From the NCBI GenBank assembly GCA_002839765.1, contig PGYR01000007.1, positions 1-46,141 on the forward strand: DNA of 46,141 nt. Reading direction: 5' to 3'. Each line of letters begins with the position of its first letter. Positions within the stretch are counted from its first letter, which is position 1. This DNA is from Ignavibacteriae bacterium HGW-Ignavibacteriae-4 (lineage in GTDB: Bacteria; Bacteroidota; Ignavibacteria; Kapaibacteriales; UBA2268). Under the pieces are notes generated by a model. It was not told the DNA's origin. It saw only the letters and a list, made by a program, of their open reading frames with translations, and searched no databases. Shown one piece after another: positions 23,024 through 33,162 of the stretch. A program made the translations under genes and the position numbers.

Positions 23024-23734
23024 CTACATCCCCTCCTTCGATAGTTTGTACTCACGTTCAGCACAATCGGGCATAAGTACTCTAAGGAATCTTGAAAATG
23101 CCTGAGAATGATTGGCAAATTTAAAATGAGCTAGCTCGTGCATTATTACATATTCAATACAGAACTTGGAAGTCTTTAAAAGCTCCGGGTTCAAATTTAT
23201 TATTCCTTTGTTCTGGATGCAGCTTCCCCATCTTTTTTCCATCTTACGTATCTTTATTATCGGTTTTGCTATTTGATAAGGTTCAATTTTTGGGTACAGA
23301 TTATCCAATGAATTATTGAAATATTTCTCAGCTTTTCGCAACCACCAATCATTAATATTCAGTTCTATTTGCTGCTTATCTTTTGGGTCTGCTGTATATA
23401 TATTCAGATACCCTGATTTGAGCTTTACTTCTTCTGTGTTGGACTCTATCACCTTTATTGTGTATTGCCTGCCTAAATACTTGATAGTCTCACCAGACTC
23501 ATAATCTAGCTGTAGTTTTCGTCCATAGAATTTATCGAAATGATTCTGTTGCTTTTTAATCCATCTTTTCCTTTTCTCAACCTTAGTTTCAATTTCTTCT
23601 GACGTATTGCCGTGAGGTGCTGAAATCTCAACCGTCTGGTCTGGATACACACGAAACTTCATATTCTTTCTAAACTCTGTGATAAGAGTATATTCTATAA
23701 CTTCACCAAATAATTCAAATGTTCTTTTTTCCAT
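23024..23734 (-). CDS. YgjP-like (DUF45) zinc metallopeptidase linked to type I restriction
   Basis: The 236-residue protein belongs to the YgjP/DUF45 family (M48-like). The zinc motif HELAH lies at about 198-202 in 'YVIMHELAHFKFANHSQAF', with a preceding 'RKMEKRWGSCIQNKGIINLN' stretch that is typical of the family. It starts one base after the hsdR stop, making it the last gene of the defence operon. DUF45 proteins are often found beside type I hsdR genes; their role there is not settled and may be proteolytic control of the restriction subunit. No signal peptide is present, so it acts in the cytoplasm. Confidence 0.88.
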   Translation of the reverse strand: MEKRTFELFGEVIEYTLITEFRKNMKFRVYPDQTVEISAPHGNTSEEIETKVEKRKRWIKKQQNHFDKFYGRKLQLDYESGETIKYLGRQYTIKVIESNTEEVKLKSGYLNIYTADPKDKQQIELNINDWWLRKAEKYFNNSLDNLYPKIEPYQIAKPIIKIRKMEKRWGSCIQNKGIINLNPELLKTSKFCIEYVIMHELAHFKFANHSQAFSRFLRVLMPDCAEREYKLSKEGM

Positions 23735-23735
23735 C

Positions 23736-26700
23736 TTAATATCTATTCTCAGCTAATTGAATAATATTACCATTTAGCTTATCAAGTTCTTCGTGCGATA
23801 GTTCTAATCCCTCGTTGTCTATCAAGTCATAAAAAATATCGTCTAGAGCTGATTGTAGTTCCTTCTTTATATCTTCATTTCGTTTCCAATCAACTATTGT
23901 TTTCTCATCTAAGATTGATTCTATATTGAGTGCCAATTCAATAAGTCTTTCATCAGATAGTTCTTTCTTTATCTCTAATAAATCACTTTTTATATTTCTG
24001 TATAAAGTCTGAGCGTTCTCATTATGTTCCAAAGCGGCTGGGATACCATCAATTTTCTTTCCTCTCAGCTTCTCGGTTAAATCGCTTACGGCTCTAGCAA
24101 ATTGCAGGTCATCAATTTTTCTCTGTCTGAATTTCTCTATTGCTTCCCTTATCAATTCCGAAAGTTTTTTGTAGAATACAGGATCTTTTTCCATATTCTC
24201 AGTACATTCTTTGATAGCATTATGGGCAATGGCAACTGGCATATTTACTTCATTTTTAGTACCTATCTTTTCTAAGAACTCTTCTACTTTATCTCTATCA
24301 GAAAGATTGATACTACCTTCTGTAAGACTCTCTATACCTTCTACGAAAACATGATTATTTAATAATGCTCTCATACGTGGTTCAAATTCTTTCATGCTGA
24401 AATGCTCTGAGTACGTTACCTTTAATGTGATATTTAGCTTGGTATAGAACTCATAATCATTCCTATATTTTTTTATTAGATGTGGGTGGTTACGATGGAA
24501 CTCTGCTTCATTCATAACTACGTGGAGTGAATTACCAAAAGTTCGTAATCTATCAGAAAATTCATCTCGCTTGTCTTTATTATCTAAGAAATTAACATAT
24601 AACTGGACATCTTCTTTATTCTCTATATCAATAAACATCTCCTCCAAGTGTTTCAAGTCTTCTGCGACTATAACTCTGAACTGAGATACATCTGTAACTG
24701 TTCCTTCTATATCTTCTTTGTCATATCCAGCCAAAGCACTATACTCATCTAACGCCTTTGTCATATTACCTAAGATGCCGTTATAATCAATGATGTAGCC
24801 GTATTCTTTGCCTTCGCAAACTCTATTTACTCTAGCTATTGCTTGTAGCAAATTGTGGTCTTTCAGGTTCTTTAAGTTGAATAATATTGTGTTTACCGGT
24901 GCATCAAACCCTGTGAGCAGTTTATCTACACAGATAATAATTTCTATTCCATCTGGGTCATCTTTGAATGAGTTTTTAACCATATCATTATAGTAAGTTT
25001 CCCCTCCATACTTAGCCATCATTTCCTTCCAATGCTTTTGTATTAGAGCTTTATCACTATCTTCATTAGTTGTAGTACCCGATTCTTCACCCTCTTTTTC
25101 TTGTGGGTTTGAGATAATTACTTCTGACTTTATCCTATCACCAGCTAATTCATCTAAGAATTTCTTTAGCATTATAGCATCACGCTTGCTATTAGTAGCT
25201 ACTTGTGCCTTGAACTTAGTTCCTTTCCAACTTGTCAAATATGTTTCTTTAATATCATTGGCTATTTCCATCAAATTGTTGTCGGTGCTTAGTATCAATT
25301 TTTCGTTGGAATACTTCTTCTTTAGCTGTTCCTTTTGATAATCAGTTTTTCCTTCAGCTATCTGTCCAAACTTCCTATCCATAGCTTCCTCAGCTACCTT
25401 ATTCACTATTAACCTGTTCTCATAGAGCAGGGGAACTATTACACCATCTGCTTCTGCTTCTTTCAATGTGTATTTGTGTATGAATCCACCGAATTTCTCA
25501 GCTGTATCTTTATCTCCTTTATTCAGAGGAGTACCAGTAAAACCGATATAAGTTGCCTTTGGCAATACGGCTTTCATAATAGAGTGTGATAGACCGTACT
25601 GCGATCTATGGCTCTCATCTATAAGGACGAATATATTTTCTGAGTTTACACTTTTCTTTTTATGTAACAGGGAGTTGAACTTTGCTAATACTGTAGTTAC
25701 TATCTCGTATTTTTCATTTTCTAATAGCTTCAACAAATTCTTGCCAGATGTAGCTTTCTTCGGTGTTAACCCTTCTTTAGTATTTTCAAAAGTGTCGTGT
25801 ATCTGTTTGTCTAACTGAATCCTATCGGTTACTATTAGGACTCTAGGGTTTTGAATTTCTGTGTCTAGTGCCAATGCCTTCGCTATTAGTACCATAGTCA
25901 AAGATTTACCGCTACCTTGCGTGTGCCAGATAACTCCACCTTTTCTATTGCCATCTTTTTTCTTATGTTTTATTCTTTCCAAAGTTTTCTTAGTTGCGTA
26001 GTACTGTTGGTATCGGCTCAGCTTCTTGATGCCACCATCGAATAGTATATGCTTTTGCACTAATTCCATTAGTCTGTCTGGGTGGCAAAGTGAGTACAGT
26101 CCTGATGATTGTTCTGTCAATGACAATTCAGAATTGAGTGAAGCACCTACTTCCTCGTAATCACTTCCTAAAAAAGCCATCGTTAGCTCTTCGCTAATGG
26201 GTTTATTTTGTACTTCTGCTATTTGCTCTGGTGTAAACTCTTGCTCTCTCCATACAGTCCAAAAACTACTACTTGTACCAGTTGTAGCATAGCTCAGATC
26301 TCTCGAATTGCAGGCAATATGCACCTGAGTGTAATAGAAGAAAAATTCGATATTCTCTTTCTTTTCATAGCCAGCTATATCACTTTTCGCTACTTCTAAT
26401 CCTTCTTTTACAGTTGCAGCTTTGCACTCAATAGCAACGAATGGGATACCATTCACAAATGCAACTACGTCCAACTTCTTCCTTGTCCTTCCATCAGCTG
26501 TTGTTACCTCGTATTCTTGTGTAACGTGGTATTTATTGTTTTCAGGATTCTTAAAATCTATAAATTTGCTCTGAGGAAAAAACTCTCTTCCTTTCACAAA
26601 TTCCTTTACAGATTTACCATCTACTAAAGTTTGGTAAACATTCTTATTAGTAGCCGTTAGCCCCTTTGCTTCGGGTGAAGATAGCTCACTAATCAGATAG

Positions 26701-26921
26701 GATACATTGTTCCCAGAAATCTCATAAGTGCCACCATCTAACTCAAATTGGTTCAATTTGCGTAGTTGCTCATCGAGTACATCAGATAGGAGTACGTGGG
26801 AGTAATTCCCCCCACGCTTGCTAATTGCTTGCTGCGGACTAATATACTCATAACCCATATTCACAAACATCTTCAACGCTTGTGCTTGGGTAAATCTCTC
26901 ATTCAGTAGTTTCGGGTTCAT
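23736..26921 (-). CDS. hsdR: Type I restriction endonuclease subunit R
   Basis: HsdR is the motor and nuclease of the type I complex; it pulls DNA through and cuts at distance from unmethylated sites. The 1061-residue protein has an N-terminal nuclease domain with the PD-(D/E)xK element 'PFVAIECKA' (about 158-166). The helicase domains carry Walker A 'TQGSGKS' near 332-338, the DEAD-like motif LIDESHRS near 436, 'GFTGTPL', and later 'IARVNRV'. The C-terminal region is helical and probably contacts HsdM. Length is normal and no break is seen. It sits 12 bases after the cyclase gene and one base before the YgjP-like gene, not next to hsdM and hsdS. Confidence 0.96.
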   Translation of the reverse strand: MNPKLLNERFTQAQALKMFVNMGYEYISPQQAISKRGGNYSHVLLSDVLDEQLRKLNQFELDGGTYEISGNNVSYLISELSSPEAKGLTATNKNVYQTLVDGKSVKEFVKGREFFPQSKFIDFKNPENNKYHVTQEYEVTTADGRTRKKLDVVAFVNGIPFVAIECKAATVKEGLEVAKSDIAGYEKKENIEFFFYYTQVHIACNSRDLSYATTGTSSSFWTVWREQEFTPEQIAEVQNKPISEELTMAFLGSDYEEVGASLNSELSLTEQSSGLYSLCHPDRLMELVQKHILFDGGIKKLSRYQQYYATKKTLERIKHKKKDGNRKGGVIWHTQGSGKSLTMVLIAKALALDTEIQNPRVLIVTDRIQLDKQIHDTFENTKEGLTPKKATSGKNLLKLLENEKYEIVTTVLAKFNSLLHKKKSVNSENIFVLIDESHRSQYGLSHSIMKAVLPKATYIGFTGTPLNKGDKDTAEKFGGFIHKYTLKEAEADGVIVPLLYENRLIVNKVAEEAMDRKFGQIAEGKTDYQKEQLKKKYSNEKLILSTDNNLMEIANDIKETYLTSWKGTKFKAQVATNSKRDAIMLKKFLDELAGDRIKSEVIISNPQEKEGEESGTTTNEDSDKALIQKHWKEMMAKYGGETYYNDMVKNSFKDDPDGIEIIICVDKLLTGFDAPVNTILFNLKNLKDHNLLQAIARVNRVCEGKEYGYIIDYNGILGNMTKALDEYSALAGYDKEDIEGTVTDVSQFRVIVAEDLKHLEEMFIDIENKEDVQLYVNFLDNKDKRDEFSDRLRTFGNSLHVVMNEAEFHRNHPHLIKKYRNDYEFYTKLNITLKVTYSEHFSMKEFEPRMRALLNNHVFVEGIESLTEGSINLSDRDKVEEFLEKIGTKNEVNMPVAIAHNAIKECTENMEKDPVFYKKLSELIREAIEKFRQRKIDDLQFARAVSDLTEKLRGKKIDGIPAALEHNENAQTLYRNIKSDLLEIKKELSDERLIELALNIESILDEKTIVDWKRNEDIKKELQSALDDIFYDLIDNEGLELSHEELDKLNGNIIQLAENRY

Positions 26922-26933
26922 CTTGTATCTTAT

Positions 26934-28184
26934 TTATTGAACAAAAATTGGAAATTCAATAACTTCCTTTCTATGATTATCTTTAGCTTTAAACTCACAA
27001 ATTGCTTTATGATGCCCTAAGAACGAGGCAACTACATTGCAGGAATCACTATTTATGAGTTCTAAATCTATATCTATCTTATTTGCTTTTTTTGCTTCTT
27101 TTCCAGTATTCTTAACAAACCAATTAATGAATTCGAAGCGCTCAATATTTATCTTTTGTCCATTATGTAATAATGTAAATTTAATATTCTTTTCTTTTGG
27201 AATTGAATAAGAATTTTCCCAATATTTTGAATTACTTTCATCCTTAACATTACATTGTAATGTGTATTCAGATTTTTTTAATTGAATACTGTTTTTTGTT
27301 GCATTCGGAAAATATAAAAAGCTAAAAGAATTTAAATAATCTAAATGTTTAAACAAATAATATTTATATTCTAAAATTTTATCGCCTTTTTTTTCAACTA
27401 GATTACTAGGTAAATCTAATTCTTTACATATATTATCCCCAATAATAATTTGATCTGGTTTTGCTTTAGATTGTAGCTTAGCAGCAGAGTCAGTATGAAA
27501 ACTTGTAGTTGTCAATTCACTACAATTGGGTATCCCAAAATGAGACCAAAGAACCTTATCTTTGCTACCATAATCTATTCCAGCTCTTAATTGAATTTCA
27601 CCCAAACCCTTAACTTTAAAAGTTGGATTAATTAAATCATTTACAGTCCGAAGAATGAAGGATGCTGCATTTAAAGAATTAATTATTGAGTCTAAATGAT
27701 TTCTATCTTTACGAACAAATTGTATAAAAATACCATCGCCTTGTAACCTGTGTATATGTCCACCAAAAAAATTTGCTACATAAATGCAAAGAGTAAGTAT
27801 ACTATCTTTTATGTATCTTATATTTGTAAGGCTCAATCTATTGTTCATATCAGTTGAACCTGCAATATCGATAAAACATGAAACAGAATAATGATTTAAG
27901 GAGTCGTGATTTCCAATTACATTTTTAAAATCTGGATGGTCACCGATACAAAAATCATCTATTTTGTGCTTATTCTTGCCTAAATATTTTACCATTTCCG
28001 AGTAATTAAAAGTTGTAAGTTTATCTGAAGACTCATTCACAATATTATTTGTGAAACCATTATTTTGAAGAGATTTTAAAAGCTGATTTGGTGCATAAGA
28101 AACTGCTTCACTAATGGATTTATTACTTTCATAAATATTTTTAAACAAATCATTTCTGAATTTTTCCAGTTCATTGAAAATCAT
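26934..28184 (-). CDS. pycC: PycC-like class III nucleotidyl cyclase with AGS-C-like tail (Pycsar)
   Basis: In Pycsar defence a cyclase senses phage and makes cCMP or cUMP. The 416-residue protein has a helical N-terminus and a class III cyclase domain (about 95-270) with the two metal-binding aspartates, D106 in FIDIAGST and D150 in LQGDG, and a WSHFG segment at 213-217. Where most adenylate cyclases have Asn-x3-Arg it has D232-x3-K236 (HTDSAAKLQ). The last 110 residues ('FINWFVKNTGKEAKKA' and 'FLGHHKAICEF') match the AGS-C sensor domain found after Pycsar cyclases and CBASS nucleotidyltransferases. The start overlaps the stop of the membrane-effector gene by 4 bases. Family assignment is by motif recognition; the nucleotide made cannot be read from sequence. 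Confidence 0.8.
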   Translation of the reverse strand: MIFNELEKFRNDLFKNIYESNKSISEAVSYAPNQLLKSLQNNGFTNNIVNESSDKLTTFNYSEMVKYLGKNKHKIDDFCIGDHPDFKNVIGNHDSLNHYSVSCFIDIAGSTDMNNRLSLTNIRYIKDSILTLCIYVANFFGGHIHRLQGDGIFIQFVRKDRNHLDSIINSLNAASFILRTVNDLINPTFKVKGLGEIQLRAGIDYGSKDKVLWSHFGIPNCSELTTTSFHTDSAAKLQSKAKPDQIIIGDNICKELDLPSNLVEKKGDKILEYKYYLFKHLDYLNSFSFLYFPNATKNSIQLKKSEYTLQCNVKDESNSKYWENSYSIPKEKNIKFTLLHNGQKINIERFEFINWFVKNTGKEAKKANKIDIDLELINSDSCNVVASFLGHHKAICEFKAKDNHRKEVIEFPIFVQ

Positions 28185-28708
28185 TTTATTACCTCGTTTA
28201 CAGCTAATAACACTAGTAAAGTAATTACAATAATTCCAATTAGATAAAGTATATTCATAGATTTACTTATTAATTTATACTTTTTTGTAAGTGCGTTAGA
28301 CAGGACATGTACTTGATCGGATAAATCTTTAATATTATCTTCTTTAGAATTAGTTGACATCTTTGAGATGTAATCTTCATTACTATACTGTGAAACAGAG
28401 CCAAAGAAAATTAGTGATTTCTTTTGAGTGTCGTTCTCGAACTTTAGCCAGGGGAAAACTGCTTTCAGTACAAAGAAAATACCAAAAAAGAGTAATATTA
28501 ACCCCAGAATAAGTAAAATAGACATCATTGTAAAAATCGAACAGTTCTCTATTCTTAATATTTCATTGATATTGTATAAAGTAATGGTAATAAGAAAAGT
28601 ATATATAGAAATTAAAAATGTTCCTTTAGTATTAATAACATCAAGATAGTGGTCGTATCTGTTAATTATAAGACTTAGATGTTCGTATGTACTCTTATTT
28701 TCATTCAT
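28181..28708 (-). CDS. pycTM: PycTM-like membrane effector (Pycsar effector domain)
   Basis: This small inner-membrane protein is expected to disrupt the membrane when it binds a cyclic pyrimidine nucleotide. Of 175 residues, hydrophobic segments lie at about 29-47, 58-86 and 152-171. The N-terminal 'NRYDHYLDVINTKGTFLISI', the soluble 'LIFFGSVSQYSNEDYISKM' (99-117) and 'LSNALTKKYKLISKS' (136-150) match the pattern of the Pycsar effector family (formerly DUF5706). It directly precedes the cyclase gene with an ATGA overlap, the arrangement expected for an effector-sensor pair. It has a perfect AGGAGG ribosome site. A SLATT-type or CBASS 2TM protein is a weaker alternative. Confidence 0.8.
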   Translation of the reverse strand: MNENKSTYEHLSLIINRYDHYLDVINTKGTFLISIYTFLITITLYNINEILRIENCSIFTMMSILLILGLILLFFGIFFVLKAVFPWLKFENDTQKKSLIFFGSVSQYSNEDYISKMSTNSKEDNIKDLSDQVHVLSNALTKKYKLISKSMNILYLIGIIVITLLVLLAVNEVIK

Positions 28709-28751: not shown

Positions 28752-30014
28752 TCACACCCTCACCTTACCAGTCAAAAGTACCTGCATCAGCCCACGCTTC
28801 TGCTCTACTAATCGCTGCTTCTCGTCTCGCAAACCCTCTATTAACTCGTCTTGTGTGCTTAGCACTTCCGCTATTCTTTCTTGTTCAGGTAATGATGGTA
28901 ATGGGATAGAGAGAGATTTAACTTCAGAGCTATTAATTGCAGGATAATTAGAACCTACTAAAAGAGCTTCTATTTGTTTTTCAAAAGGGTAGGAGAATAT
29001 ATAGGCATATAAATATTTTGGTTCTATTCTTCCATTTGAGCGAAGTACAGAAAACCCAGTTGATGCTATAAAACCATCTAAATTCGCACCTATAAATAAA
29101 AATCCTTTTAAATTTGGTCTTACTGTAGATAATAAGACATCGTTTTTCCTAACTATCCTTCTTGCTCTTGAAGGAGCATTCTTTAAATTATATGATTTTA
29201 AATTATCTGCTATGTTCCCTAATTGCACATCTGACAAAGATATGTAGTTAAACGTAATTTCTTTATTATAATCTTGGTTTATTGATTCTGAATCAACTAA
29301 GACAACCTCTTTCATTTTAGAAAGCTCCCAATCATTTGGAATCGAACCGATTTTAGTCTTTTTACAATCATTTTTATTTGTACTACTCCAATCCCCAGAA
29401 AATCGAGTTTTACCTGTTAGTAGCTGCTGCATTAGCCACTTCTTGCGTTGCTCCTGTGCTGCTATTAGCTTTTCAGTTGTCTCTATCGCTTCATCCCAAG
29501 TGCTTAGTATTTCGGCTATTTTCTTCTGCTCTCGCATCGGTGGTAGTGGGATAGATAGGGTGGAGACTACACCCCAATCAGATCTAGGCATTTTTGTTCC
29601 TGATGTCAAATTTGCTGTTTCTATAAATCTATCTGTATTTACTAAATAAAATAGAAATTTCGAATCAGTATTTGTTCTATTAGATAAAACCCAAATTTCA
29701 GAAGAGCAGACTCCATCAAATTCAGCATACCAAAACTTTCTAAGATATGGTCTTAACTTACCAAATAATATATTGCTCACTATAAATTTATTTTTTTGAC
29801 TCAGTAATTTATTTGATTCTGTAAAACCTAATATTCTTCCGGTTTCTTGTTCTATGTGTTCTAACTCAATACATTTCACACTTGTGCTATCTTTTGGGTT
29901 TAGTGTTTTACCTTTTTTTTCGGCTATTTCTTTAAAAGATTTCACCTCCCACTCTTTAGGAATCCACCCAATTTTTGTATGCTTGTAGCCGCTTTTGTTT
30001 TTGTTAGTTGTCAT
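28752..30014 (-). CDS. hsdS: Type I restriction-modification specificity subunit S (two target-recognition domains)
   Basis: HsdS chooses the DNA target of the type I complex. The 420-residue protein is a full-length tandem: TRD1 (about 8-155), conserved helix 1 ('PLPPMREQKKIAEILSTWDE', about 165-205), TRD2 (about 218-375) and conserved helix 2 ('LPEQERIAEVLSTQDELIEG', about 378-415). Both halves start with the repeated KIG-IP--WE motif and both helices end in LLTGK-R, so each half reads half of a bipartite site. Its ATG overlaps the stop of the degenerate cyclase-fold gene by 4 bases. A second, half-sized HsdS is encoded at the front of the operon. Confidence 0.95.
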   Translation of the reverse strand: MTTNKNKSGYKHTKIGWIPKEWEVKSFKEIAEKKGKTLNPKDSTSVKCIELEHIEQETGRILGFTESNKLLSQKNKFIVSNILFGKLRPYLRKFWYAEFDGVCSSEIWVLSNRTNTDSKFLFYLVNTDRFIETANLTSGTKMPRSDWGVVSTLSIPLPPMREQKKIAEILSTWDEAIETTEKLIAAQEQRKKWLMQQLLTGKTRFSGDWSSTNKNDCKKTKIGSIPNDWELSKMKEVVLVDSESINQDYNKEITFNYISLSDVQLGNIADNLKSYNLKNAPSRARRIVRKNDVLLSTVRPNLKGFLFIGANLDGFIASTGFSVLRSNGRIEPKYLYAYIFSYPFEKQIEALLVGSNYPAINSSEVKSLSIPLPSLPEQERIAEVLSTQDELIEGLRDEKQRLVEQKRGLMQVLLTGKVRV

Positions 30015-30976
30015 ACCCTTGTCTCATTTATAAGTACCTTTACTTCAGGATAAAACTCCTTATCTTTTATTAAATTATCAATATAATTAATTGCAATATG
30101 CTGTCCATCTTCTTTCCAAATATGGTGAAAATGAGTTATGGTACTCTTAATAATTAGACATATAAATTCATAATACTGAATAACAACACTTTTCTTTTTT
30201 TCTTTTTCTTCATTATCTATTTCATTCCGCATCTCTAGGTTGTAGTGTTCCCATAATCTAATAGCTGCTGGTAAATATTCATTAACTTTACTAATCTCAT
30301 CACCGGCTTCATTTCCTTCTATATAAATGATGTAAAACCACAAGAATTCATATAAATTATCATTTGGCTGTTTCAGAAAAAGATGCTTTAATCTTTGTTC
30401 AGCGGCTAAATAAAAATCTTCAGAAAGCATCAATCTTGGTCCTTTAAACCCACTCCTTTCTATATAATATGCCTTTATAAAACCATTTCCATAAAAGTTA
30501 AATGTTGTCATTAAATTTGATTGGAATAATGAATTCACTTTTATTGAATTAAATTCACCATAATATCCACCACCCCGGAAGAGTAAAGGATAGTTTTTAA
30601 CAGTTCTTGTCTTCCCATCAATATCTTTAAGTTCCATTTCAACAGGACTTTTATAAATACTATTAGCTATTGCATAATGTGAAAAGCTAGTATCTTCTAT
30701 CGAAATGTTAATACAACTCTTCAGGAATTTTGACAATTGGGGTAACATTATATTAATATCATTTGAACTAGCTATTACAGAATCACTTGAAAGTAAAAAA
30801 TCTGAAAATCCCGTTGTTAAGAACTTTGAACTTATTTTGCCCTTAAAGCGGTTATCATTGTTTTGTAAATTTAGTAAATTACTTACATCAAACAGTAATT
30901 GTGATGCCGCTGCGGGATCAGTTTCAATATATTTAGTAAACCCTAAAATGTCTAGAAATATTACATACTTTTTCAT
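30011..30976 (-). CDS. Degenerate cyclase-fold protein coupled to hsdS
   Basis: The 321-residue cytoplasmic protein begins 'MKKYVIFLDILGFTKYI', where the Asp of FLDILGF matches the first metal-binding Asp of class III cyclases. 'TGFSDFLLSSDS' (about 55-66) matches the region of the second metal Asp but lacks the GDG form, and 'FRGGGYYGEF' and 'GPRLMLSEDF' recall later cyclase-domain segments. It is therefore probably a cyclase-fold protein with altered or lost catalysis; the C-terminal 120 residues are helical and unassigned. I start it at ATG 30976, preceded by GAGAG; a TTG 15 bases upstream is less likely. It overlaps hsdS by 4 bases and follows hsdM by 100 bases. Its function is unknown. 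Confidence 0.65.
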   Translation of the reverse strand: MKKYVIFLDILGFTKYIETDPAAASQLLFDVSNLLNLQNNDNRFKGKISSKFLTTGFSDFLLSSDSVIASSNDINIMLPQLSKFLKSCINISIEDTSFSHYAIANSIYKSPVEMELKDIDGKTRTVKNYPLLFRGGGYYGEFNSIKVNSLFQSNLMTTFNFYGNGFIKAYYIERSGFKGPRLMLSEDFYLAAEQRLKHLFLKQPNDNLYEFLWFYIIYIEGNEAGDEISKVNEYLPAAIRLWEHYNLEMRNEIDNEEKEKKKSVVIQYYEFICLIIKSTITHFHHIWKEDGQHIAINYIDNLIKDKEFYPEVKVLINETRV

Positions 30977-31049
30977 ACTTTTTTCTCTCAATTTGTAATT
31001 AAACTTATTTTACCGTCTTTTATACTAAAAGTTTTTAACCTTTTCCGTT

Positions 31050-31066
31050 ATTCGAAAAATTCGAAT
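31050..31066. promoter_or_regulatory. Palindrome between hsdM and the cyclase-fold gene
   Basis: ATTCGAA-AAA-TTCGAAT is a perfect inverted repeat in the 100-base gap after hsdM, the largest gap in the operon. It could bind a dimeric regulator or act as a weak attenuator. No promoter box is evident beside it. Confidence 0.35.
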
Positions 31067-31076
31067 ATCTGCTTGT

Positions 31077-32573
31077 TTACACAACTCCTAGCTCACTCAG
31101 GTATTTGTCCATCTGTTTTTTGATTTTCGCTAATTCAGTTTCTATTTTTGCTATTTCCTTTTGTGTAGCAGCTATGTTTACTGGCTCTTCTTCCTCAAAC
31201 GTGTCCACATAGCGTGGTATATTCAAGTTGTAATCGTTTTCTGCTATCTCGTCCAGAGTGGCTACGTAAGCATATTTATCTACTGTCTTCCAGTTTTTGT
31301 AAGTCTTCACTATTTTCTCAATATCTTCTGAACGTAGTGAATTTTGGTTTTTATCTTTCTGAAATTCACTGCTCGCATCTATGAATAGTACATCTTTACG
31401 CTTTCTGTTCTTTTTGAATATTAGTATAGCAGCAGGTATGCTAGTGCCATAGAATAGCTTTTCAGGTAGTCCTATCACAGCTTCCAGCATATTCTCCTCA
31501 ATTAATTTTGTACGGATTTTACCCTCAGCACTCCCACGGAATAGAACTCCATGGGGAACTATTACGCCCACAGTACCATCAATAGGATTTGCCGTCTCTA
31601 TCATGTGTAGCAAAAAGGCATAATCACCCTTGCTTTTTGGTGGCACTCCTCGGTGGAATCGTCCGTATTGGTCATTCGTCATATCAGTATCAGCCCACTT
31701 ATCAAGCGAGAACGGAGGATTAGCTACTACAACATCGAATGTCATTAACTTGCTATCACGCAGCAATCGAGGGTGGTTCAGCGTATCACCACGTTCTATT
31801 TTGGAGTTTGATATACCGTGTAGGTACATATTCATCTTACCAATCGCCCAAGTAGAGCCATTGCTCTCCTGTCCATACAGCGAATAGTTATTATCACCTA
31901 CTGTCTTAGCTACCTCTATAAGTAATGAACCAGAGCCACAAGCAGGGTCACAAATAGTATCGCCAGATTTAGCACCTACCAAGCTAGCCAATAGCTTTGA
32001 TACTTCGTGTGGAGTATAGAACTCACCGCCTTTCTTACCAGAATCGGAAGCAAATCGCTTAATAAGGTATTGGTACGTGTTACCTATTATATCCGAATCT
32101 CCAATCACAGAAGGTCGTAAATCCATTTTTGGATCATTGAAATCCTCGAGCAAGTTTTTAATCCTTGCATTACGCTCTCTTGTTTCACCAAGAGCAACTT
32201 CCGAGTTGAATTTTATACCACGGAATACACCGTCCAATTTGCTCTTATTTTCTTCTTCTATTTTGAATAGTGCCTTGTCTATTAGCTCGCCTATGTTCTT
32301 CTCATTTCTATTTTCATAGAAATAATCGAATGTAGTGTCTTCTGTCAATATGAACTTCTCACGGCTTAGTTCTCTTGTAACTCTTGCATTACCTTTGCCG
32401 AATTTCTTTTCGTATGTTGCCTTGTGGTCTTTCCATACATCACTTGTATACTTCACGAAAAGCATTACTAATATGTAATTTTTATACTCAGCCGGGTCAA
32501 CTGTTCCACGGAAAGAGTCGCACGCTTTCCAAGCTATTTGATTAATCTCACTTTGCAGTTTGATATTATCCAT
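31077..32573 (-). CDS. hsdM: Type I restriction-modification DNA methyltransferase subunit M
   Basis: HsdM transfers methyl groups to adenine N6 in the target chosen by HsdS, protecting host DNA. The 498-residue protein has the N-terminal helical HsdM domain (1-145), the AdoMet-binding motif DPACGSGSL near 207, and catalytic motif NPPFS near 282 in VVANPPFSL. 'GGEFYTPHEV' just before motif I is characteristic of type I M subunits. A coiled-coil C-terminus (about 460-498) contacts S. It starts one base after the half-HsdS gene, so M and the half-S are made together, while the full S is encoded 1.1 kb downstream. Confidence 0.97.
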   Translation of the reverse strand: MDNIKLQSEINQIAWKACDSFRGTVDPAEYKNYILVMLFVKYTSDVWKDHKATYEKKFGKGNARVTRELSREKFILTEDTTFDYFYENRNEKNIGELIDKALFKIEEENKSKLDGVFRGIKFNSEVALGETRERNARIKNLLEDFNDPKMDLRPSVIGDSDIIGNTYQYLIKRFASDSGKKGGEFYTPHEVSKLLASLVGAKSGDTICDPACGSGSLLIEVAKTVGDNNYSLYGQESNGSTWAIGKMNMYLHGISNSKIERGDTLNHPRLLRDSKLMTFDVVVANPPFSLDKWADTDMTNDQYGRFHRGVPPKSKGDYAFLLHMIETANPIDGTVGVIVPHGVLFRGSAEGKIRTKLIEENMLEAVIGLPEKLFYGTSIPAAILIFKKNRKRKDVLFIDASSEFQKDKNQNSLRSEDIEKIVKTYKNWKTVDKYAYVATLDEIAENDYNLNIPRYVDTFEEEEPVNIAATQKEIAKIETELAKIKKQMDKYLSELGVV

Positions 32574-32574
32574 T

Positions 32575-33162
32575 CTATTTACTCCATTTGTATTTATTAA
32601 TTAATTCTAAGTTATAATCTTTTTGTAGTTCTGCCAACCTTTCCATGAGTTGTGCTCGCATTATTATTAATTGGTAGAATCCCGAAATTTTCTTTTGCTC
32701 TTCTAACGGTGGTACTTCTATCTCAAAGTCATTCAAAGTGGATATTGTAAGATTAGGAATACTTGTACCGGAGCTAAGTTTACCAAGATGGTATTGAGTT
32801 GCTTTTTTGTTCAGCACATAGAGCAAAAATTCAGGAAGAATAATTTTTTCATTGACTTCAATTATGAAATAGAAAGATGTTATAACTATATTATTAGGTA
32901 CATTACTATCTATCATATAAGCATCATTATTGAAGCCTTTACATTTAATAATAACTTGCTTATGTTTAGCAAGGTACTTATCTTGGATTGGTTTTAATTG
33001 CTGTTGTTGCAAAGAAGCATAATCTATTAATCCTGAATCATTGACATCAGTCATAGTAAGGACTTTGTATTTGATACCATTCACTGTATCAGTATCGCTT
33101 CTTCTGGCAAAGAGATAACCGGAGTATATTTTGGCTATATCTTTTAATTTATTAGCTGACAT
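32575..33162 (-). CDS. Half-size specificity subunit HsdS (single target-recognition domain)
   Basis: The 195-residue protein has one target-recognition domain (about 1-145, with 'LSSGTSIPNLTISTLNDFEI') and one conserved coiled-coil helix ('PPLEEQKKISGFYQLIIMRA', about 150-175), i.e. half of an ordinary HsdS. Half-S proteins can dimerise to form a palindromic specificity module or can compete with a full S. It is the first gene of the operon, directly under the promoter and one base before hsdM. The sequence is intact at both ends and does not look like a truncated copy of the full hsdS downstream, from which it differs. Its contribution to target choice is inferred. Confidence 0.85.
   Translation of the reverse strand: MSANKLKDIAKIYSGYLFARRSDTDTVNGIKYKVLTMTDVNDSGLIDYASLQQQQLKPIQDKYLAKHKQVIIKCKGFNNDAYMIDSNVPNNIVITSFYFIIEVNEKIILPEFLLYVLNKKATQYHLGKLSSGTSIPNLTISTLNDFEIEVPPLEEQKKISGFYQLIIMRAQLMERLAELQKDYNLELINKYKWSK

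Follow-up and report, generated by a model that had tools for sequence, protein, structure and literature searches.

A predicted class III cyclase-fold protein encoded between hsdM and hsdS belongs to a divergent family with a conserved metal site and an association with restriction loci

The embedding of defence genes in operons of type I restriction-modification (RM) systems is already known. In the sections of the published descriptions that were consulted, the loci of DarTG2 (in the RptR island), TgvAB and PrrC all carry extra genes between hsd genes, and the RptR island has an M48 metallopeptidase gene after hsdR (PMC12255303, PMC11411939, PMC3710099). The operon analysed here differs from these loci in holding a predicted cyclase-fold cargo gene in the hsdM-hsdS gap together with a Pycsar pair in the hsdS-hsdR gap, and it has a gene for a YgjP-like metallopeptidase after hsdR, which the M48 protein of the RptR island appears to resemble. 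For the Pycsar cyclase EaPycC (clade E), the consulted parts of PMC11224242 name D102, D146, F100, R142 and Q144 as its residues for metal and CTP and describe a dimer, arranged head-to-tail, whose interface holds the active sites; they also place 6YII as a clade A PycC and report that substrate residues differ between PycC clades. Our literature search, which left most subscription papers and bioRxiv outside its reach, found no description in print of the family reported below or of Pycsar within type I RM operons.

The window, i.e. the whole stretch of DNA that was analysed, comprises the 46,141 nucleotides of contig PGYR01000007.1 from Ignavibacteriae bacterium HGW-Ignavibacteriae-4. Its type I RM operon runs on the minus strand in the order half-HsdS, HsdM, P0001, HsdS, PycTM, PycC, HsdR and YgjP (Table 1). 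We refer to the hsdM-hsdS gap as slot 1 and to the hsdS-hsdR gap as slot 2. P0001 is encoded by a genuine gene, with an ATG start at 30976 preceded by GAGAG 8 bases upstream and a stop codon ending at 30011. At its TGA the gene overlaps the ATG of hsdS by four bases (GTATGAC), so that the overlap between P0001 stop and hsdS start that a first-pass annotation of this DNA had described is indeed present. The G+C content is 0.288 for P0001, 0.27 for PycC and PycTM, 0.304 for the half-HsdS gene, 0.395 for hsdM and 0.361 for hsdR. The low values of P0001, PycC and PycTM would fit cargo, although the half-HsdS gene is low as well. The 100-base gap between hsdM and P0001 contains a perfect inverted repeat. 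Elsewhere in the same genome (G000), two more type I RM loci (on C55 and C76) have no cargo between their hsd genes, and at least 10 class III cyclase genes score above the Pfam cut-off.

Table 1. Positions of the features discussed, numbered from the first letter of the window.
Feature	Position	Strand	Remark
YgjP-like metallopeptidase	23024..23734	-	relative in 18/20 related stretches
HsdR	23736..26921	-	domain search
PycC cyclase (P0002) with AGS_C tail	26934..28184	-	slot 2 cargo; Pfam, PADLOC
PycTM effector	28181..28708	-	slot 2 cargo; Pfam, PADLOC
HsdS, two Methylase_S stretches	28752..30014	-	domain search
ATGA, P0001 stop overlapping hsdS start	30011..30014	-	
Cyclase-fold protein P0001	30011..30976	-	321 aa; predicted cyclase fold (residues 1-215), then helical tail (216-321)
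Codon of D65, second metal Asp in S64-D65-S66	30782..30784	-	34/34 aligned members
Codon of D9, first metal Asp	30950..30952	-	34/34 aligned members
Inverted repeat, hsdM-P0001 gap	31049..31067		perfect, 8-base arms, 3-base loop
HsdM (N6_Mtase, HsdM_N)	31077..32573	-	domain search
Half-size HsdS-like protein, operon head	32575..33162	-	called in 19/20 related stretches

The variability of the two slots was evaluated in 20 related operons, taken from the best of the matches found in 185 of 395 genomes, whose hsdM products are 58-62% identical to that of the window. The half-size HsdS gene lies upstream of hsdM in 19 of these 20 stretches; in L050 the contig stops about 700 bases past hsdM. Slot contents were counted as ORFs of at least 60 aa in the 18 readable operons, leaving out L063, which lacks an hsdM call, and L069, which lacks one for hsdS. 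Slot 1 holds ORFs in 15 of the 18 operons (RhuM, Fic, BRO-like or other ORFs) and is empty in 3, while slot 2 is occupied in 16 of the 18. The 68 cargo ORFs of at least 90 aa include 9 RhuM, 7 Fic, 5 BRO, 4 SMODS, 2 SAVED and 2 AGS_C proteins, with Shedu, patatin and others once each. Cyclic-nucleotide defence domains besides Pycsar (SMODS, DncV-like, SAVED, patatin) thus occur, next to Shedu, in the cargo of these stretches (L050-L069). This is an operon type with two cargo slots of variable, often defence-related genes, and P0001, between same-strand hsd genes at a site of variable content, is embedded in it in the same manner. No member of the P0001 family was found in any of these 20 stretches. 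In 4 of the 18 readable operons the gene before hsdS overlaps it by four bases, and this gene encodes RhuM, is an ORF without a Pfam hit, or is hsdM itself; translational coupling as proof of a specific link between P0001 and HsdS was dropped, since the overlap is also made by unrelated genes.

The proposal that P0001 has a cyclase fold and a FLDILGF-type N-terminus is borne out, for the fold by prediction: after MKK the protein reads YVIFLDILGF, and structure prediction, Foldseek and VIA comparison point to the same fold, so that the objection of an unrelated fold fails. An AlphaFold model built with eight sequences from the window and from database contigs reached a pLDDT of 74.8 and a pTM of 0.79. 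The best VIA match of this model is a guanylate cyclase (Z 15.3, rmsd 2.6, 157 aligned positions, residues 1-214), and all 50 VIA entries among the matches listed are cyclases, including 7yz9 and 9u3u, which we take to be cyclases by their names. Foldseek gave a best E value of 3.9e-4, with just 3 matches below 0.001, and 6YII among the matches at 1.8e-3. In a viral structure library the two matches below 0.001 are long pandoravirus proteins annotated as kinases, with poor rmsd. Profile comparisons went in the same direction as the cyclase matches. A three-member family profile reached a canonical cyclase in the one genome searched (G078) at E 4.7e-4; an eight-row profile gave this cyclase 21 bits and the seven cyclases from the window's genome at most 14.5 bits, the corresponding E values referring to these eight sequences only; and hhalign of the family against canonical cyclases returned the motif register, though at a probability of only 24-48%. 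Residues 1-215 are thus supported by prediction as a class III cyclase fold. The C-terminal tail, predicted alone, is helical at low confidence (pLDDT 63, pTM 0.51). A HEPN-type tail was considered and dropped, as visual inspection of the C-terminal family alignment showed no conserved Rx4-6H, and no toxic effector domain was recognised in P0001.

In class III catalysis a Lys contacts the substrate, an Asp selects the base, and an Asn and an Arg stabilise the transition state. We assigned the corresponding residues of P0001 by alignment to canonical cyclases and within the family. The position of the first metal Asp of class III cyclases is taken by D9, which the first-pass annotation had rightly regarded as retained. 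The same annotation had read GFSDF in place of the GDG motif; this register was rejected, because the second-Asp motif of the relatives, (F/M)SDS, aligns with S64-D65-S66 in the LLSSDSVIAS segment of P0001, six residues downstream of the Asp of GFSDF. P0001 therefore has both metal Asps. Among the divergent members aligned, none departs from D9 or D65, and 33 of 34 have R134. By contrast, the substrate Lys, base-selecting Asp/Thr and transition-state Asn and Arg of class III cyclases are replaced in P0001 by L61, N160, I167 and Y171, respectively, and within the family the canonical Lys (position 61) occurs in 6 of 34 members, Asn (167) in 1 and Arg (171) in 2. P180 is found in 24 members and R181 in 21. 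Since the family as such lacks the canonical residues, this form belongs to the family and is not the decay of one copy. P0001 thus shares with class III cyclases (PF00211) the predicted fold over residues 1-215, the motif order and both metal Asps, but differs from them in giving no Pfam hit, in the missing substrate and catalytic residues and in its own helical C-terminal tail.

These results divide the earlier view of P0001 as a degenerate, non-catalytic cyclase. The canonical catalytic residues are absent, as that view supposed, and the missing substrate and transition-state residues argue against ordinary cyclase catalysis; both metal Asps are kept, however, and a strictly conserved metal site argues against a mere remnant. 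Residue conservation therefore suggests a conserved site with changed chemistry rather than decay. It is quite possible, though we would not assume it, that the family comprises divergent but active nucleotidyl cyclases or other NTP enzymes working with residues of their own (D9, D65, R134 and often P180-R181). The near invariance of the metal Asps and R134 across very distant sequences would fit such an activity, as would the precedent of the PycC clades with their differing substrate residues; the absence of the canonical Asn and Arg does not, nor does the incomplete conservation of P180 and R181.

The operon also encodes an active-looking cyclase, as had been claimed. The product P0002 matches PycC in PADLOC at E 1.3e-120, and the neighbouring gene matches PycTM in Pfam at E 1.1e-15. 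P0002 further matches PDB chain 8jsf, named cytidylate cyclase, which is probably EaPycC; a gapless alignment to 8jsf, combined with the residue spacing given in the consulted part of PMC11224242, places D106, D150, F104, R146 and Q148 of P0002 at the metal and CTP positions of EaPycC. By profile, metal and CTP residues and PycTM partner, P0002 accordingly qualifies as a PycC. P0001 has the cyclase fold in common with PycC proteins (6YII, 7R65, EaPycC) but is unlike them in other respects: it matched 0 PADLOC families at E 0.1, it has no N-terminal extension before strand 1, it is not next to an effector gene, with no relative of this PycC or PycTM in the 45 family loci fetched, and, by spacing from the metal Asp, L61 and S63 stand where EaPycC has R142 and Q144.

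As a pseudo-cyclase with a sensing or inhibiting role, P0001 might link the restriction complex to PycC and the cyclic pyrimidine signal, perhaps as a partner of PycC at the interface of a cyclase dimer. The predicted fold class common to both proteins, their position in one operon and the interfacial active sites of the EaPycC dimer would allow such a coupling. The comparative data do not bear it out. Relatives of the window's PycC or PycTM were found by phmmer in 0 of the 45 family loci fetched, a set that includes near-copies and three loci without a true member (L149, L156, L157), and a search from which distant PycC clades could escape. Conversely, a search at E 1e-30 recovers relatives of P0002 from 6 of 395 genomes, one of them that of the window, and the family profile found a member in 0 of the 5 other PycC stretches, one of which (L102) ends at a contig end. 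In L064 (G339), which carries the nearest relative of P0002, PycTM-PycC occupies the hsdS-hsdR slot and Fic the hsdM-hsdS slot, and no family member is present. RM-embedded Pycsar therefore occurs without P0001, and the family occurs without this Pycsar. Moreover, hhalign found no profile match between the family alignment A3 and PycC (probability 1.8%), and PycC keeps metal and CTP residues of its own. The absence of co-occurrence in both directions led us to discard P0001 as a dedicated Pycsar partner, and the expectation that homologues would occur only in operons with PycC or PycTM failed. Given, in addition, that the ATGA overlap is not specific, we consider a sensor or inhibitor of this kind very improbable; the related idea that P0001 is the missing trigger of a composite system may still hold for this one operon but finds no comparative support.

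To describe the family as such, we searched profile libraries, structures and genomes. P0001 has no match in Pfam, NCBIfam or PADLOC (the latter at E 0.1), and sequence searches of solved structures returned none for P0001 and only weak, unrelated matches for one relative. The profile of PHROG 23933, which spans 240 positions and has no assigned function, matches the N-terminus of P0001 at E 1.9e-8. In phage records nothing was found by tblastn with P0001 or with the member from L016, and pattern scans were likewise empty, both with P0001 alone (genome and viral contigs) and with alignments (viral contigs). The nearest relatives, 24-29% identical, come from Spirosoma/Fibrella, a Nitrospirae MAG, a Chloroherpetonaceae MAG and Oscillibacter. 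The wider family includes plasmid-borne members from proteobacteria, Bacillota and other groups, with 43 records for one query, for which the annotated rows among the matches listed are hypothetical proteins. In a phylum sample of 282 genomes searched with an 18-row profile at E 1e-6, 26 matches were obtained in 23 genomes; removal of G078, G101 and G274, whose matches are canonical cyclases with the VN-A-R motif, left family members in 20 of 282. In G101 (L156:3658-14108), five long tandem ORFs each carry a canonical class III cyclase motif. The tree and alignment comprise 34 rows and omit L146 (stop-split), L148, L083, L086 and L090 as well as the near-copies L003, L014, L141 and L143. By these searches and the predicted fold, P0001 belongs to a widespread family of class III cyclase-fold proteins that carries no name.

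To quantify the association with restriction genes, 19 distinct loci were derived from the 26 matches of the phylum sample (18 without the window), after dropping near-copies of L139 (G209, G229, G213), G110 (where the profile found no ORF) and G101, G274 and G078. Several of the RM reference proteins came from member loci, and for each locus its own references were left out. An RM gene lies within 5 kb in 6 of the 19 loci with the window and in 5 of the 18 without it, compared with none among 40 control stretches (Fisher p=0.0019; the controls, from 22 genomes, were placed by hand, mostly on long contigs, and were not matched for variable islands). One locus is borderline (L140, E 8.4e-6 in the RM scan, yet 7.6e-13 for Pfam Eco57I); without it the comparison is 4 of 18 versus 0 of 40 (p=0.007). 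An association of the family with restriction loci is thus supported. The objection that homologues sit mostly in non-defence contexts holds in part, 13 of the 18 loci having no RM gene within 5 kb, and our own earlier impression of the relatives as non-defence orphans was revised on this larger sample. The argument for a defence role is one of neighbourhood only, because no constant partner gene of the family was seen.

The restriction genes concerned are of several types. Type I RM genes are neighbours in the window, in L136 (HsdM followed by the member, SIR2 and HerA genes separating hsdS from hsdM) and in L154 (HsdR, a 200-aa ORF, then the member). Fused enzymes of the Eco57I/MmeI type adjoin members in L144 (MmeI/Eco57I enzyme, member, then DpnII-like and GmrSD genes) and in L109, a locus from another search outside the phylum sample (Eco57I/TaqI_C enzyme, member, YhcG, RhuM), where the member has a four-base overlap if a GTG start is used. 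In L140 the member is followed by an Eco57I-type methylase and a HATPase, and in L153 it is flanked on both sides by C5 methylase loci, with EcoRII and Vsr. Further neighbours of a defence type are a YhcG-type gene (DUF1016_N), located about 100 bases ahead of the member in L012, a locus from the subgroup of P0001 itself, and an AbiEii gene about 14 bases before the member of L091. The full row at L136:6801-15541 reads partial HsdS, SIR2, HerA, HsdM, family member, peptidase U49 and Fic. On the 34-row tree the RM label, borne by 7 rows, does not cluster and takes seven changes, at least five of them forced by well supported branches. These changes may be gains or losses; the simplest reading of the tree would be that restriction loci took up the family more than once.

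Two further explanations bear on these neighbourhoods. Members could be mobile passengers that play no part in defence and end up near RM genes since both live in variable islands. Members do occur on plasmids, several lie near transposases or integrases, and one (L147) is in a cassette-like array; immediate adjacency to RM genes in several cases, with four-base overlaps in the window and, given the GTG start, in L109, and the strict conservation of the metal site speak against it, and we regard it as unlikely. The L147 member (L147:3303-12739) is surrounded by small same-strand ORFs with regular gaps, which look like an integron cassette array. The main functional rival is an arrangement like that of PrrC, a protein of the hsdMSR locus PrrI that the RM complex keeps inactive according to the part of PMC3710099 that was consulted. 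The HsdM/HsdS complex would correspondingly hold P0001 inactive and release it as a second defence line once a phage disables restriction. The position of P0001 between hsdM and hsdS, its overlap with hsdS and the presence of members beside several RM types would suit such a guard; but members also occur at a distance from RM genes, the RM enzymes that they adjoin elsewhere are unrelated in architecture, and no toxic effector domain is recognisable in P0001, which makes this arrangement, too, an unlikely one, and slightly more so than a passenger.

Our preferred reading, towards which we lean without great confidence, is that P0001 is cargo of the hsdM-hsdS slot, a stand-alone accessory defence gene, and that the adjoining Pycsar pair is incidental. 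P0001 would then fill slot 1 of an operon whose hsdS-hsdR slot happens to hold PycTM and PycC; it would bind a metal-NTP via its two-Asp site, perhaps to turn it into a product, to hydrolyse it or simply to sense it, act as a self-contained accessory defence gene, and be co-expressed with the restriction enzyme rather than serve as a subunit of PycC. The divergent-enzyme reading given above is compatible with this cargo reading. More speculative, and in our judgement doubtful, is the extension to the family as a whole: a one-gene defence enzyme that, unaided, produces or degrades a nucleotide signal at a non-canonical site (D9, D65, R134, often P180-R181) and that type I, fused MmeI/Eco57I-type and C5 restriction loci have each acquired independently as a second defence line.

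For the operon, these data mean that Pycsar, like CBASS and Shedu domains, is able to occupy hsd cargo slots. For the family, they mean that proteins without a Pfam model or a name keep a metal site through extreme divergence and often adjoin restriction genes. If its members are indeed defence enzymes, a new nucleotide-linked module would join the known embedded systems.
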